In this document: positions 16,389 to 49,463 of the stretch, piece by piece
Layout of the letters: each line of letters begins with the position of its first letter
Numbering within the stretch: the stretch's first letter is position 1
Source: Beggiatoa alba B18LD
GTDB taxonomy: Bacteria > Pseudomonadota > Gammaproteobacteria > Beggiatoales > Beggiatoaceae
Length of the DNA stretch: 64,000 nucleotides
Reading direction: 5' to 3'
NCBI RefSeq assembly: GCF_000245015.1
Contig: NZ_JH600070.1
Location: forward strand, 1,351,284 to 1,415,283
Made by a program: the position numbers and the translations under genes
The notes under the pieces: generated by a model
Databases searched by the model: none
What the model saw: only the letters and a program-made list of their open reading frames with translations
What the model was told of the DNA's origin: nothing

Positions 16389-16408
16389 TATAGTTACCGT
16401 ACCATAAA
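16389..16408. repeat. Left terminal repeat of an IS630-type element
   Basis: TATAGTTACCGTACCATAAA differs at two positions from the left end of the mini element at 32897-32916 and begins with TA, the target of IS630 elements. It lies 20 bases before the decayed transposase frame. Confidence 0.6.
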
Positions 16409-16427
16409 AAGAGAATAAAAAATAACC

Positions 16428-16710
16428 TATTCAATAGATTTCCGTAAGAAAGTATTAAAAGTGAAACAAGAAGAAAATCTCACCCTAGCAGCGGTAGCGA
16501 AACGCTTTCAAATAGCCATCGCAAGCGTCGTCAGGTAGAGCAAAGTATCGGAAGCCAAACAAACACGTAACAAACCAACCTAAATAGACATGGAAGCCCT
16601 AAAACAAGATGTTGCGTTATATCCCCAATGCTTACCATGATGAACGCGCAACACAGTTTGGAATGACGGAAGGGGGAATTCGCCATGCGTTAAAACGTCT
16701 AGGGATTAGC
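16428..16710 (+). pseudogene. Decayed IS630-type transposase, N-terminal (OrfA) part
   Basis: In one frame the sequence reads YSIDFRKKVLKVKQEENLT, then LAAVAKRFQIAIASVVR, the helix-turn-helix start of IS630-family transposases. It is then broken by an in-frame TAG (16538-16540), a TAA near 16580, and a frameshift near 16622, after which another frame continues PNAYHDERATQFGMTEGG, then IRHALKRLGIS. There is no ATG at the expected start. The catalytic DDE part is missing, because the sequence runs straight into a MITE-like end at 16708. It cannot encode an active enzyme. Confidence 0.85.
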
Positions 16711-16858
16711 CCGAGTTCGGCGAGATTCTTTTAAAAAGACAAGAGATTGTCTGAATCAGGATTTTCAGAATTAACAAAATTTAAACTCCTTAAACCAAGA
16801 AATTAACGCGAATCACGTTTTTTAATTCTGAAAATTCTGTGAATTCTGATTCAGACAA
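16708..16858. repeat. MITE-like left end plus 9-base-step palindromic unit
   Basis: 16708-16724 (AGCCCGAGTTCGGCGAG) is a decayed copy of the terminal repeat of the element at 45596. TTGTCTGAATCAG (16748-16760) and CTGATTCAGACAA (16846-16858) are perfect inverted ends of a 111-bp unit whose arms repeat an AATTCTG/CAGAATT-like motif every 9 bases. It abuts the transposase remnant. Confidence 0.75.
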
Positions 16859-16862
16859 AAAA

Positions 16863-16895
16863 AGACCTGCTAGGCTTTAAAAACCTAGCAGGTCT
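16863..16895. terminator. CCTGCTAGG-type hairpin downstream of aminotransferase gene
   Basis: AGACCTGCTAGGCTTT and AAAACCTAGCAGGTCT form a near-perfect stem. The same hairpin recurs at 45634, 49307 and 52940. Read on the minus strand it lies just after the stop of the aminotransferase gene and is followed by a T-run (complement of 16857-16863). Confidence 0.75.
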
Positions 16896-16904
16896 CGCTC
16901 TGAA

Positions 16905-18074
16905 TCAGGCTTTTTTCAACTTCCCAACCGCATCGCGTATCCGATTTAATCCCTTAATCAACTGTTCACGCGGACAGCCAAAATTTAAGCGGATAAAACC
17001 CGCTCCGCCTTCGCCAAAAGTTGCGCCATCGTTAAAGGCGATTTTTGCTTCAGTTAAAAAATATTGAAATGGGTCAGCAACGGGTAACGCACGACAATCT
17101 AACCAGCCTAAAAAAGTCGCTTCAGGCGCGGTTAAATTCAATTCAGGCAAATACATGGTTGTAAAGTAGCTTATAAAATGGCTGTTATGGCTTAAATAGT
17201 CTAATAAATCTTGTCGCCATGTTTCACAGGATTGATAGGCAGCAATACTCGCCGTTACGCCTAAAATATTGACTTCTGGCACTATCCCTTGCATTGCGCG
17301 TTTGAATTGTTGGCGCAGTTGTGGATTTTGGATAATGGCAAAGCTACAGCCTAAGCCTGCAATATTAAAGGTTTTACTCGCTGCCATGAAAGTAATGCAG
17401 TTGTCTGCAATTTCAGGCGAGAGTGCGGCAAGTGGCGTGTGTGTGCGTCCGTCTAGGAGTAGGTCGCAGTGAATTTCGTCGGAGCAAATGACTAATTGAT
17501 GTTTTAAACAAATCTCTGCAAGTTGTTGTAATTCTTCAGGGGTAAAGAGTCGCCCAACGGGGTTGTGCGGATGGCAGAGTAAAAATAGGCGGGTGCGTGG
17601 TGTAATCGCTTTTTCTAACGCTTCATAGTCCATGCGGTATTTTAAAAATTGTTTGGTTTGTTCATATTGCAGGCTAACGGTTTGAAGTTCGCGTTGTTGG
17701 TTGGTGGGTGCGGAGAGAAAAGGCGGATAAACAGGGGTTTGGGTTAATACGGCATCGCCAACATCACCAATTGCTCGACAAACAATATTTAATCCGCTGA
17801 CTAATCCAGGTAATAGGACGATGTGTTCAGGGCTAACTTGCCAGTTGTAAAAGTGGGCGAGTCGTTCAACCAGTAGATTTAATAGGATTTTAGGTTCTGA
17901 ACCGTAGCCAAAAACACCATGTTCAATCCGTTGTTTTAATGCGGTGAGAATCGGCTCTGGTGAGGGGAAATCCATATCGGCAACCCACATCGGCAATACA
18001 TCCGCGCCATATCGTTGCCATTTTATACTGTCCGTGTCGTGGCGGTTGGTGATTTGGTCAAACGGAGAAGTCAT
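16905..18074 (-). CDS. PLP-dependent aminotransferase, MalY/PatB family (cystathionine beta-lyase-like)
   Basis: 389 residues, the usual length. Family features: the N-terminal RHDTDSIKWQRYG and LPMWVADMDFPSP, substrate-site CHPHNPVGR, the PLP Asp in ICSDEIHCDLLL, and the Schiff-base Lys in MAASKTFNIAGLGCSF. PatB/MalY enzymes cleave C-S bonds of cystathionine, giving homocysteine, pyruvate and ammonia. The start directly follows the TPR-sulfotransferase gene after 5 bases, so the two are probably co-transcribed. Confidence 0.92.
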   Translation of the reverse strand: MTSPFDQITNRHDTDSIKWQRYGADVLPMWVADMDFPSPEPILTALKQRIEHGVFGYGSEPKILLNLLVERLAHFYNWQVSPEHIVLLPGLVSGLNIVCRAIGDVGDAVLTQTPVYPPFLSAPTNQQRELQTVSLQYEQTKQFLKYRMDYEALEKAITPRTRLFLLCHPHNPVGRLFTPEELQQLAEICLKHQLVICSDEIHCDLLLDGRTHTPLAALSPEIADNCITFMAASKTFNIAGLGCSFAIIQNPQLRQQFKRAMQGIVPEVNILGVTASIAAYQSCETWRQDLLDYLSHNSHFISYFTTMYLPELNLTAPEATFLGWLDCRALPVADPFQYFLTEAKIAFNDGATFGEGGAGFIRLNFGCPREQLIKGLNRIRDAVGKLKKA

Positions 18075-29065: not shown

Positions 29066-29090
29066 TCACCCTAACAACTTGTTTACAATC

Positions 29091-31475
29091 ATGATGCACG
29101 ATGTAAATTTTTTAGTCATTGATACTGAAGGTAAATCTACTTTAAATGAAATTGCGATTTTAAACGCAGACGGTAAGTTGATTTACGAAGCCTTTAACCA
29201 AGACACACAACAGGAAATACAGTTTAATAACAAACCATTAAAAACGATTTTACAAGACATCTTACAACTCAGCGTCGATAAAACCCTCGTTTTTCACTAT
29301 GCCGAACATGATATAAGACTCTTGAAAAGAAGTTTTAAAAGCGCAAGTTTAACTTTTCCACCATTAAAAACGGCTTGCACGTTTTTAATGGCTAAACAAG
29401 CCTTACCACAAGCAACATCTTATTCATTAGCCTATTTAAGCAAGTATTTAGGCTTAAAAGTAGATCACCAATTTTTTAATCAAAATGCAGCTCATTCAGC
29501 CCGTTATGATGCCGCTTTTACCCATCAACTTTATTGCCATTTGACCCAAACCGCCAATTTTTCAATAAAACCACAGATTATGAATCCATTTAGCGATAGT
29601 CGCGTCGACAACCCATTTCAACAACACTTAGACTTAAAAAGCGTTTATCAACATGAATTTGCAACTCTAAAATCTATCTTAAACGAAATCAAGCAAGACC
29701 CAAATCATCAGAGTAAAGGCGCGGTAGTCATCGGAGAAGCAGGAAGCGGAAAAACCCATTTAATGATGCGGTTAGCACAAGAAGTTTTAAAAAATAATCG
29801 CTTATTATTCATCCGTCAACCGAATAACCCTGACGCGATTTTGCATCATGTTTATAGCCGTATTTTAGAATCGTTTATCGAAAAAGTACCCGATACCCCA
29901 TTTTCCCAACTAGAATACCTCTTAGCCCACAGTTTTTCTAAAATTGCGATTGAACATTATCAGCAAAAACAAACGAAAAAAGATGAACCAATTTTAGACG
30001 CATTAACAACAGACCATTTAAATATTTACGCGAAACTCGGCGCAGAAGGCACGGAAATAAAAAGAAATAACTGGGCGAGTTTAGAACGCATGACCCGACG
30101 CTGGTGGGAAAGTCGTTACAGTTTTGCAGGCATTGCGACTGCCATTATTCAAGGCTTGATTAAATACTGCGCTTACCGTGACCCACATCGCCGTGACTTG
30201 GTTAAACGTTGGCTTGCAGGCGCAAGTTTAGAGACAGAAGAACTACAACTCGTCGGCTTGCCTGATTGGGAAGAAGAGTTGAATTTAGAAGATTTTTCTC
30301 TACAAGCCATGATTGTATTTGGACGTTTATCCTTGATTGATGAACCCTTAATTATCGTTTTTGACCAGTTAGAGGGTTTAAAAGACAATGAAACCTTGCT
30401 TACTCAGTTTGGCAATGGGTTAAAGGAAATTTTCACAGCTGTTCCAAATAGTTTGATTATCCTAAATTTATTTCCTGACCGCTGGATGACTTTTCAAACG
30501 ATTTTTGATAGCTCTATCGTTGACCGTATTTCTCAATATCGAATTACCTTAAACCGTCCTGATACAGAAATATTAAAGGAAATTCTCTATTTAAAGGCTA
30601 GTACCCAAGGCGTTGATTTAGAAAAATTGTTTAACGACAACGATTTCAGGGAAATTTTGAGTTTCTACTCAATTCGCACCGTTTTAAACCGTGCGGCTGA
30701 ATATTTCCGCTATCGCGCTGAGGGTATTAGCTTACCGCATTTAGACACCGACAAATTAGTATTTGAGGCACAAATTTGGCATGTTATTGGTGAATTAAAA
30801 AAAGAAATCCAACAATTAAAACAACAGATTGGGATTACAGAACCAACACCGCCCGCCAGTTCCCAAAATAACCCCGCAGAAACGGCGAATACCCCTGCTA
30901 CTGTAGAACAAACCTTACTAGACTACTTAGCCAGAATCGAACAACAATTAATTGCTGATTACAGTAAAAAACAAATTATCACGGAACATGATGATGTAGG
31001 AAAATTACAAACCATCATGAGAGCTTTTCAAAGCGTTAAATACGCTGATATTGAACTAGATTGTTTACATTATGGCAAAAAACGCCTACCTGATAATTTA
31101 CAAATTAAGACAAAGAAAAATACCTTTGTTGTGGGTTTTTTATACCTAGTTGGTAACTCTTTTACCGCTCGGCTAAAAAATTTTAATGAACTCGTATTAC
31201 AGCACAAAAATTACCGTTTTCGTATCTGTCGTGACAGCCGCGAACCTGCGATAAAGGGGAAAGTGGGCATGGATGAGATTGAAAAATTGATGAATGCCCA
31301 AAATGGCAATTATTACGTCATGGAACAAGATGACCGTATTCGCTATGAATTACTGTATCAATTGATTATTGATATTCAAAATAAAGATTTAGAAGTTGAT
31401 TTACAACAGGCTTTAAACTTCGTTGAAATGGAATATTTGCGCGATTTTTGGATAATGGCATTATTGCGTCATTAA
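29091..31475 (+). CDS. DEDDh exonuclease fused to P-loop ATPase, unknown function
   Basis: 794 residues from ATG 29091; no clear ribosome site. Residues ~5-155 form a DnaQ-type 3'-5' exonuclease with a complete DEDDh set: Asp11 and Glu13 (VIDTEG), Asp74 (YAEHD), His135 and Asp140 (AHSARYDAAF). Residues ~185-560 are a P-loop NTPase: Walker A GEAGSGKT (215-222), Walker B IIVFDQLEG (Asp425), and an ORC/AAA_16-like stretch with Arg480-Arg485 (DRISQYRI). A short helix (~563-580) and a Pro/Ala/Asn-rich linker lead to a C-terminal domain (~605-794) with FVVGFLYLVGNSF and RICRDSREP that I do not recognise. It is a single gene between argS and an FMN protein. Nucleic-acid surveillance or defence is an inference. 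Confidence 0.8.
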   Translation: MMHDVNFLVIDTEGKSTLNEIAILNADGKLIYEAFNQDTQQEIQFNNKPLKTILQDILQLSVDKTLVFHYAEHDIRLLKRSFKSASLTFPPLKTACTFLMAKQALPQATSYSLAYLSKYLGLKVDHQFFNQNAAHSARYDAAFTHQLYCHLTQTANFSIKPQIMNPFSDSRVDNPFQQHLDLKSVYQHEFATLKSILNEIKQDPNHQSKGAVVIGEAGSGKTHLMMRLAQEVLKNNRLLFIRQPNNPDAILHHVYSRILESFIEKVPDTPFSQLEYLLAHSFSKIAIEHYQQKQTKKDEPILDALTTDHLNIYAKLGAEGTEIKRNNWASLERMTRRWWESRYSFAGIATAIIQGLIKYCAYRDPHRRDLVKRWLAGASLETEELQLVGLPDWEEELNLEDFSLQAMIVFGRLSLIDEPLIIVFDQLEGLKDNETLLTQFGNGLKEIFTAVPNSLIILNLFPDRWMTFQTIFDSSIVDRISQYRITLNRPDTEILKEILYLKASTQGVDLEKLFNDNDFREILSFYSIRTVLNRAAEYFRYRAEGISLPHLDTDKLVFEAQIWHVIGELKKEIQQLKQQIGITEPTPPASSQNNPAETANTPATVEQTLLDYLARIEQQLIADYSKKQIITEHDDVGKLQTIMRAFQSVKYADIELDCLHYGKKRLPDNLQIKTKKNTFVVGFLYLVGNSFTARLKNFNELVLQHKNYRFRICRDSREPAIKGKVGMDEIEKLMNAQNGNYYVMEQDDRIRYELLYQLIIDIQNKDLEVDLQQALNFVEMEYLRDFWIMALLRH

Positions 31476-32846: not shown

Positions 32847-32865
32847 TATTGGGCTTAATTCTTTC

Positions 32866-32896
32866 CTGAATATCCTGATTCAGATAAAAAAAGACC
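32866..32896. repeat. Fragment of CTGATTCAGA repeat and hairpin start
   Basis: ATCCTGATTCAGATAAAAAAAGACCT (in pieces from 32872) looks like a repeat right end followed by the first half of the GACCTGCTAGG hairpin seen elsewhere. The second half is missing because the mini element at 32897 begins there. Confidence 0.5.
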
Positions 32897-32973
32897 TATA
32901 GTAATCGTACCATAAAGTGATTTAAATTTAGGACTGCCAGTCATCCGCATCGTTTTATAGTACGTTTACTATA
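32897..32973. mobile_element. 77-bp mini insertion element with 20-bp inverted ends
   Basis: Left end TATAGTAATCGTACCATAAA (32897-32916) and the reverse complement of the right end, TATAGTAAACGTACTATAAA (32954-32973), match at 18 of 20 positions. Both ends carry TA. The same terminal repeat precedes the IS630-type transposase remnant at 16389, so this looks like an internal-deletion derivative (MITE) of that IS. It has no coding capacity. Confidence 0.8.
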
Positions 32974-32987
32974 ACAAGATTAAAACA

Positions 32988-33148
32988 TTGTCTGAATCAG
33001 GATTTTCAGGATTAACAGGATTTAAAACCCTCAAATCAAAAAGTTAGGTGAATCACGCTTTTTAATTCTGCTAATTCTGAAAATTCTGTGAATTCTGATT
33101 CAGACAAGCTGTTGTCTTTTTAAAAGAAACTTGCCGAACTCAGGTTAT
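32988..33148. repeat. 9-base-step palindromic unit plus MITE right end
   Basis: TTGTCTGAATCAG (32988-33000) and CTGATTCAGACAA (33095-33107) are the inverted ends of a 120-bp unit with GGATT/AATTC steps every 9 bases. It continues into TTGCCGAACTCAGGTT (33131-33146) followed by TA, the right terminus of the element complete at 45596-45852. Confidence 0.8.
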
Positions 33149-45595: not shown

Positions 45596-45852
45596 TAACC
45601 TGAGTTCGGCGAGATTTATAAAATAAAACAGATACCTGCTAGGTTTTTAAAACCTAGCAGGTCTTTTTTTGTCTGAATCAGAATTCACAGAATTTTCAGA
45701 ATTAGCAGAATTAAAAACATAATTTTTTATTCTTTTAATTTTCTTGTCTTTTTAATTCTGAAAATTCTGATTCAGACAATCTTTTAATCCTGAAAATCCT
45801 GATTCAGACAAACTGTTGTCTTTTTTAAAAGAAACTCGCCGAACTCAGGTTA
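45596..45852. mobile_element. Complete 257-bp MITE-like element with perfect 18-bp ends
   Basis: TAACCTGAGTTCGGCGAG (45596-45613) and CTCGCCGAACTCAGGTTA (45835-45852) are exact inverted repeats with outermost TA, consistent with an IS630/Tc1-type TA target. Inside are the CCTGCTAGG hairpin (45634-45662) with a T7 run, a palindromic unit bounded by TTGTCTGAATCAG (45669) and CTGATTCAGACAA (45779), and a second right-arm copy ending at 45811. There is no open frame. The hairpin may terminate yidC transcription. Confidence 0.85.
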
Positions 45853-49095: not shown

Positions 49096-49463
49096 TAACT
49101 TGAATTCGGAGAGTTTTTTAAAAAGGCAACGGCTTGTCTGAATCAGAATTCACAGAATTTTCAGAATTAGCAGAATTAAAAAGCATGATTCACCTGACTT
49201 TTTGGTTTAAGGGTTTTAAATCCTGTTAATCCTGAAAATCCTGATTCAGACAATGTTTTAATCTTGCCGATTAAAAAAAGCTCAGACTTTTTCGCGTGTT
49301 CCGACAGACCTGCTAGGTTTTGAAAACCTAGCAGGTCTTTTTTCGTCTGAATCAGAATTCACAGAATTTTCAGAATTAGCAGAATTAAAAAGCATGATTC
49401 ACCTTAATTTTTTGGTTTAAGGGTTTTAAATCCTGCTAATCCTGAAAATCCTGATTCAGACAA
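49096..49463. repeat. Compound repeat: MITE-like end and two palindromic units around a hairpin
   Basis: TAACTTGAATTCGGAGAG (49096-49113) is a variant MITE end. Two nearly identical 119-120-bp palindromic units follow (49134-49253 and 49345-49463), each running from TCTGAATCAGAATTCACAG to CTGATTCAGACAA. They flank the terminator hairpin GACCTGCTAGGTTTT/AAAACCTAGCAGGTC (49307-49337, with TTTTTT). The block fills the gap between convergent mch and mnmG and probably ends both transcripts. Confidence 0.85.

Follow-up and report, generated by a model that had tools for sequence, protein, structure and literature searches.

ATPases of the ORC/CDC6 clade, some of them carrying a C-terminal restriction endonuclease (REase), are a mainstay of conflict systems (PMC10853773). 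The CR-effector relatives and HerA-ORC capture systems couple an ORC/STAND-clade AAA+ ATPase to a domain of REase fold, which may be active or inactive, and some HerA-ORC-type operons also have a 3'-5' exonuclease domain, which is fused to the HerA component (PMC10853773). Avs-type STAND anti-phage proteins follow an effector-NTPase-C-terminal domain order. Hna, an SF2 helicase joined to a PD-(D/E)XK nuclease, shows that one protein with both an ATPase and a 3'-5' exonuclease can by itself form an anti-phage system that ATP holds in check (PMC13381803). In DnaQ-DinG fusions and in MrfAB, a DEDDh (DinG) or 3'-5' exonuclease (MrfB) is combined with a DNA-dependent ATPase that is likewise an SF2 helicase.

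We analyzed a 64,000-nucleotide stretch of the Beggiatoa alba B18LD genome (the window), in which one reading frame joins a DEDDh exonuclease, an AAA+ ATPase of the ORC/STAND clade and a putative REase-like domain. The last two are coupled as in the CR-effector relatives and HerA-ORC systems, but the exonuclease is attached to the N-terminus of the ORC-like ATPase in the present protein, whose REase-like domain sits at the C-terminus and shows no evident wHTH. The gene also stands by itself, with no HerA or FtsK beside it apart from one plasmid neighbor pair. The domain order is that of Avs and the NTPase is of the same clade (weak Avs2 matches in PADLOC); however, the protein is about half the size, has no repeat sensor region, and carries as its N-terminal effector a DEDDh exonuclease that is optional. 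Hna, as one protein with an ATPase and a 3'-5' exonuclease, provides a model for ATP-gated exonuclease defense (PMC13381803), the likeness being one of design. The AAA+ ATPase also sets the protein apart from DnaQ-DinG fusions and MrfAB, and similarity to the PADLOC candidate PDC-S48 and to Cas2-DEDDh is essentially confined to the exonuclease domain. A first-pass annotation of the window knew of no described system with this architecture; we likewise found no matching description in the open-access literature and no curated full-length model of the family in Pfam, NCBIfam or PADLOC.

The reading frame comprises 794 codons from an ATG at 29091, or 798 from a TTG at 29079, and ends at 31475. 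Its features, in window coordinates, are as follows.

29091..31475, + strand: whole gene, DEDDh exonuclease, AAA+ ATPase (ORC/STAND clade) and putative REase-like C-terminal domain, 794 aa
29091..29564, + strand: DEDDh 3'-5' exonuclease domain, residues 1-158 (D11, E13, D74, H135, D140), from Pfam RNase_T, PADLOC DEDDh, residue conservation and Foldseek
29580..29630, + strand: junction motif NPFSDSRVDNPFQQHLD, residues 165-181 region, just ahead of which the short forms begin
29649..30722, + strand: AAA+ ATPase and C-terminal helical bundle, residues 187-544
29733..29756, + strand: Walker A GEAGSGKT, residues 215-222 (K221 and T222 in 66/66)
30348..30374, + strand: Walker B LIIVFDQLE, residues 420-428, D..E at +3 (F424-E428 in 66/66)
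30465..30467, + strand: sensor 1 candidate N459, end of strand 454-460 (65/66; strand from the predicted structure)
30525..30527, + strand: arginine-finger candidate R479, shortly ahead of the final core strand (62/66)
30675..30677, + strand: sensor 2 arginine R529 in SIRxVLNRA (66/66)
30747..30899, + strand: long helix and low-confidence linker, residues 553-603 (pLDDT <50 at 583-602)
30900..31472, + strand: C-terminal domain, residues 604-794, putative REase-like fold with a non-canonical conserved site, from the model, Foldseek and conservation

Domains of the fusion protein

The N-terminal region exceeded the gathering cutoff of Pfam RNase_T (E=5e-6, residues 1-170) and matched the PADLOC DEDDh model (E 2e-13). 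Foldseek on the predicted model matched it to the DnaQ/RNase T/PolC exonucleases, indicating an RNase H-like exonuclease fold, with DnaQ, RNase T, PolC and DinG as the nearest solved relatives. The five catalytic residues named in the first-pass annotation lie at the positions it gave, and among the 50 homologs with an exonuclease domain D11, D74 and H135 are present in 50/50 and E13 and D140 in 49/50, so that the catalytic set is kept wherever the domain exists. These relatives also lend support to the strongest rival reading, a host DNA-repair or end-processing factor whose AAA+ core would load on damaged or stalled DNA while the exonuclease trims 3' ends. Proofreading and repair commonly use DEDDh exonucleases. 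A 3'-5' exonuclease serves repair in MrfAB, a helicase (MrfA) and exonuclease (MrfB) of excision repair related to the DISARM/Dpd helicases (PMC12458937); the DnaQ-DinG fusions offer a similar comparison. We consider this reading rather unlikely, mainly on grounds of distribution and gene context given below.

The middle region of the window protein falls just under the Pfam cutoffs for nSTAND_NTPase5 and AAA_16, and relatives exceed the AAA_16 cutoff. Positions of the AAA+ motifs were assigned from predicted secondary structure and conservation was counted over 66 family members. K221, T222, D425 and E428 were invariant (66/66), and the Walker A and B motifs, sensor 1, the arginine finger and sensor 2 were each found in 62-66/66, in agreement with the initial assignment as a P-loop ATPase of ORC/STAND-like type. 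In the full-length model (pLDDT 88.4), ORC/Cdc6 chains were among the weaker Foldseek matches and whole-chain superpositions were poor. Predicted secondary structure places a large helical region (approximately residues 250-414) after the second core strand, bigger than a simple HEH insert, and no winged helix is evident in it after the helical bundle, where a long helix and linker are found instead. Cyanobacteria also encode a broader group of AAA proteins, 620-715 aa long, whose sequences are related to that of the ATPase core (E about 1e-11 to 1e-19) and which have neither the exonuclease nor the C-terminal domain (L138, L139, L142, L144-L148).

The last 190 residues, which could not be placed at first, matched no model in Pfam, NCBIfam or PADLOC and no PDB sequence by profile; nor was any known replication or repair family matched by sequence. 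A profile of the domain found it nowhere outside the fusion family in 369 gammaproteobacterial genomes, and the full-length profile gave no separate match to it in 292 cyanobacterial genomes. Modeled alone, the region forms a single compact 190-residue domain (pLDDT 96.7), which takes the place of the C-terminal superstructure-forming repeats of Avs/STAND receptors. Its modeled order of elements, alpha-beta-beta-beta-alpha-beta-alpha-beta, fits the PD-(D/E)XK core (alpha-beta-beta-beta-alpha-beta) in order. Many of the Foldseek matches are PD-(D/E)XK nucleases, among them EcoT38I, Bax1, Nt.BspD6I, Shedu, Cap4, Can2 and XisH and, from the viral library, restriction endonucleases of phages; TM-scores are low in PDB and BFVD (PDB TMq at most 0.43 among the matches listed), and non-nuclease folds (Rab GTPases, APOBEC) also appear. 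Nearly invariant residues are D632 (E here), D635, K638, E668 (D here), R694, R714, D715, R749 and E753, position 668 being acidic in 62/66 members. The (D/E)xK strand motif is absent across the 66 members, the strand reading V-[IV]-[GA]-F-L and containing neither an acidic residue nor Lys, and therefore the canonical PD-(D/E)XK site is missing. We tentatively place the domain, from its model, in the REase-like fold, with non-canonical or no catalytic activity.

Short and split forms

The unit of ATPase and C-terminal domain is present in every member of the family. Sixteen members begin with the NPFSxSRVDTPFQ motif or a short way ahead of it; these have no exonuclease, with every ATPase residue kept in 16/16. 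They comprise a Thiotrichaceae clade of 12, a cyanobacterial pair, one Campylobacteraceae copy and L110, possibly a truncated copy, as it lies close to the end of its contig. No stand-alone ORF resembling the exonuclease was found in the fetched flanks of the short forms, outside one split case, genome G007, where exonuclease and ATPase are encoded by two ORFs in different frames that overlap by ~11 nt (L053 8906-9373 and 9363-11327); the split may be natural, or else the draft genome contains a frameshift. Since several lineages either have no exonuclease or encode it separately, the core of the family is the ATPase with the C-terminal domain. The first-pass description of an ATP switch controlling a nuclease thus does not fit the conserved core, in which the exonuclease is the dispensable part, and its loss also speaks against the repair reading. 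Two Xenococcaceae short forms (L118 2929-5148, L126 7721-9937) lie 22 bp after a cation-chloride-cotransporter-like gene on the same strand.

RNase T and oligoribonuclease-type DEDDh enzymes have RNA or short oligonucleotides as substrates. The protein could accordingly be a nucleic-acid-dependent regulator, with the REase-like domain and ATPase as sensor or scaffold and an exonuclease that degrades RNA or signaling nucleotides rather than DNA. The persistence of exonuclease-less short forms, in genomes that also have a long form in 8/14 cases, is in keeping with such a role. Both the REase-like fold and the ORC-like ATPase point to DNA, and RNA-linked neighbors are not recurrent, and we regard this reading as the most improbable of those considered here.

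Distribution and gene neighborhoods

The family was traced to Beggiatoaceae, Cyanobacteria, a few Campylobacterota and one Desulfobulbaceae. Protein and profile searches gave matches in 31 of 144 relatives, the strong ones all within the window's own family, whose genomes include Thioploca, Thiomargarita and Parabeggiatoa records; this was also the only family matched by the C-terminal domain search among 369 gammaproteobacterial genomes. An alignment scan of the species collection found 115 loci, compared to zero matches for a single-sequence scan of genome contigs, and 80 were kept (45 Cyanobacteria, 28 Pseudomonadota, 6 Campylobacterota and 1 Desulfobulbaceae). Full-length copies occur in 24/292 cyanobacterial genomes (~8%). 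In the tree, Beggiatoaceae and cyanobacterial copies form mostly separate groups, and the gammaproteobacterial part also holds the Desulfobulbaceae copy and one short form from Campylobacterota. Gene exchange has been described between filamentous gliding bacteria, Thiotrichales and cyanobacteria among them, and spread of the fusion family thus has a precedent (PMC6390638).

Nine plasmid records contain all or part of the fusion gene, some of the plasmids being conjugative or mobilizable; searches of phage records and viral contigs gave no member of the family. Split frames mark broken copies in two cyanobacterial contigs (L109, L135), and a Nostoc plasmid (L037 8001-8279) has a 92-aa remnant of the gene followed by an ISH3 transposase gene. 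The patchy presence, the disrupted copies and the plasmid carriage all count against a host repair factor.

The gene is present once in its own genome (4.27 Mb, 3 contigs), and its closest homolog, in the same genus, is 74% identical. The dN/dS ratio against this homolog is ~0.11 overall (exonuclease 0.26, ATPase 0.06, C-terminal domain 0.12; dS high and near saturation), which argues that the gene is under constraint. It is a lone gene, as first annotated, flanked by argS, upstream and on the opposite strand, and by an FMN-family gene that follows after 58 bp; the repeat-rich DNA thought to adjoin it begins 1.4 kb downstream (32864-33107). Synteny was uninformative as a sign of recent insertion, since argS and the FMN-family gene do not lie together in the same-genus genome.

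The window also contains an interspersed palindromic repeat, CTGAATCAGGATT and near copies of it, at 16751-16912, 32871-33103, 45673-45807 and 49138-49459. Copies are often in opposite orientation and ~100 nt apart, and 14 matches with <=1 mismatch were found against 0.03 expected. Just after a gene end, a 323-bp stretch (16389-16711) is 90.7% identical to a non-syntenic segment of the same-genus genome (L038 1561-1882), more than the DNA identity of compared genes of the two genomes (73-79%); it is possibly a mobile intergenic element.

Among 132 immediate neighbors at 74 loci, most have metabolic or general functions (glycogen debranching, transporters, NUDIX, FtsH), and defense genes are a minority (GmrSD 4, TIR 2). 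Many copies, including that of the window, are chromosomal and lie among metabolic genes, and a photolyase gene stands 424 bp upstream, on the opposite strand, of all four Planktothrix-type copies (L077, L078, L079, L085); both observations would suit a role in repair. The neighbors vary, so that a fixed operon partner was rejected, and this weighs against repair.

Some homologs do lie in defense-rich plasmid regions, and the family is not uniformly associated with core housekeeping genes. On Nostocales plasmids and contigs, a GmrSD-type gene lies 31-34 bp downstream of the fusion gene (L031, L033, L095) or its ORF overlaps with it (L101), and NucS-like, methyltransferase, DpdE-like and DrmMI-like genes are found on the opposite side (L101, L037 and partly L031). 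Other copies of this group are downstream of DISARM drmA and drmB (L032) or beside HerA and NurA (L034). On Synechococcus plasmids it adjoins parA and a type IIG RM gene (L035) or TIR and macro genes (L036). Defense-rich loci come mainly from one Nostocales clade and the Synechococcus plasmids, thus from few lineages, and enrichment in defense islands is clear there and weak overall. PADLOC tallies differed only modestly from those of random regions of related genomes and, because they count models and not genes, were abandoned as a clean enrichment test.

The adjoining parA on Synechococcus elongatus plasmids, together with the carriage on conjugative and mobilizable plasmids, could also indicate a protein for plasmid or mobile-element maintenance or for competition between elements, its ORC-like ATPase serving element stability or replicon exclusion. 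We hold this to be improbable, if slightly less so than the regulator: chromosomes or large contigs hold most of the copies found, beyond these plasmids no par family is recurrent among the neighbors, and no association with replication origins was seen.

Proposed role and significance

The explanation we favor, at somewhat short of an even chance, is that one protein acts as an ATP-gated, DNA-directed nuclease, akin to the conflict proteins that combine ORC/STAND and REase domains but supplemented by a 3'-5' exonuclease, and probably serves against invading DNA. In this mechanism the AAA+ ATPase would assemble in an ATP-dependent manner, probably as an oligomer on DNA, the C-terminal domain would contact DNA or cut it by a non-canonical site, and the DEDDh exonuclease would trim 3' ends. 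We infer both a trigger and a defense role, the target presumably being incoming DNA (phage, plasmid or transposon).

Conservation of the catalytic and AAA+ motifs, the nuclease matches of the C-terminal domain, the patchy spread and the plasmid copies beside defense genes support this explanation. Against it stand the mostly metabolic neighbors across the 74 loci, including those in the window, the modest PADLOC difference with defense-rich examples mainly in one Nostocales clade and Synechococcus plasmids, an ATPase that lacks repeat sensors at its C-terminal side like those of Avs-type STAND proteins, the low TM-scores and missing canonical strand motif of the C-terminal domain, and the absence from phage and viral contigs. 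The first-pass reading of the domains holds; the defense role it proposed is plausible, with some homologs in defense-rich plasmid regions and most beside unrelated genes.

With more reserve, we suggest that sulfur bacteria and cyanobacteria may share a so far undescribed immune machine encoded by one gene. Its sensing core would consist of the ORC/STAND-type AAA+ ATPase and a REase-derived domain with a non-canonical site, and the DEDDh exonuclease would be a detachable effector. The fused, split and exonuclease-less variants constitute a ready natural experiment on the role of each domain, and some members reside on Synechococcus elongatus and Nostoc plasmids, genetic tools being available for both genera. 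If the proposed role is true, a compact one-gene ATP-gated exonuclease family would be added to bacterial conflict systems.
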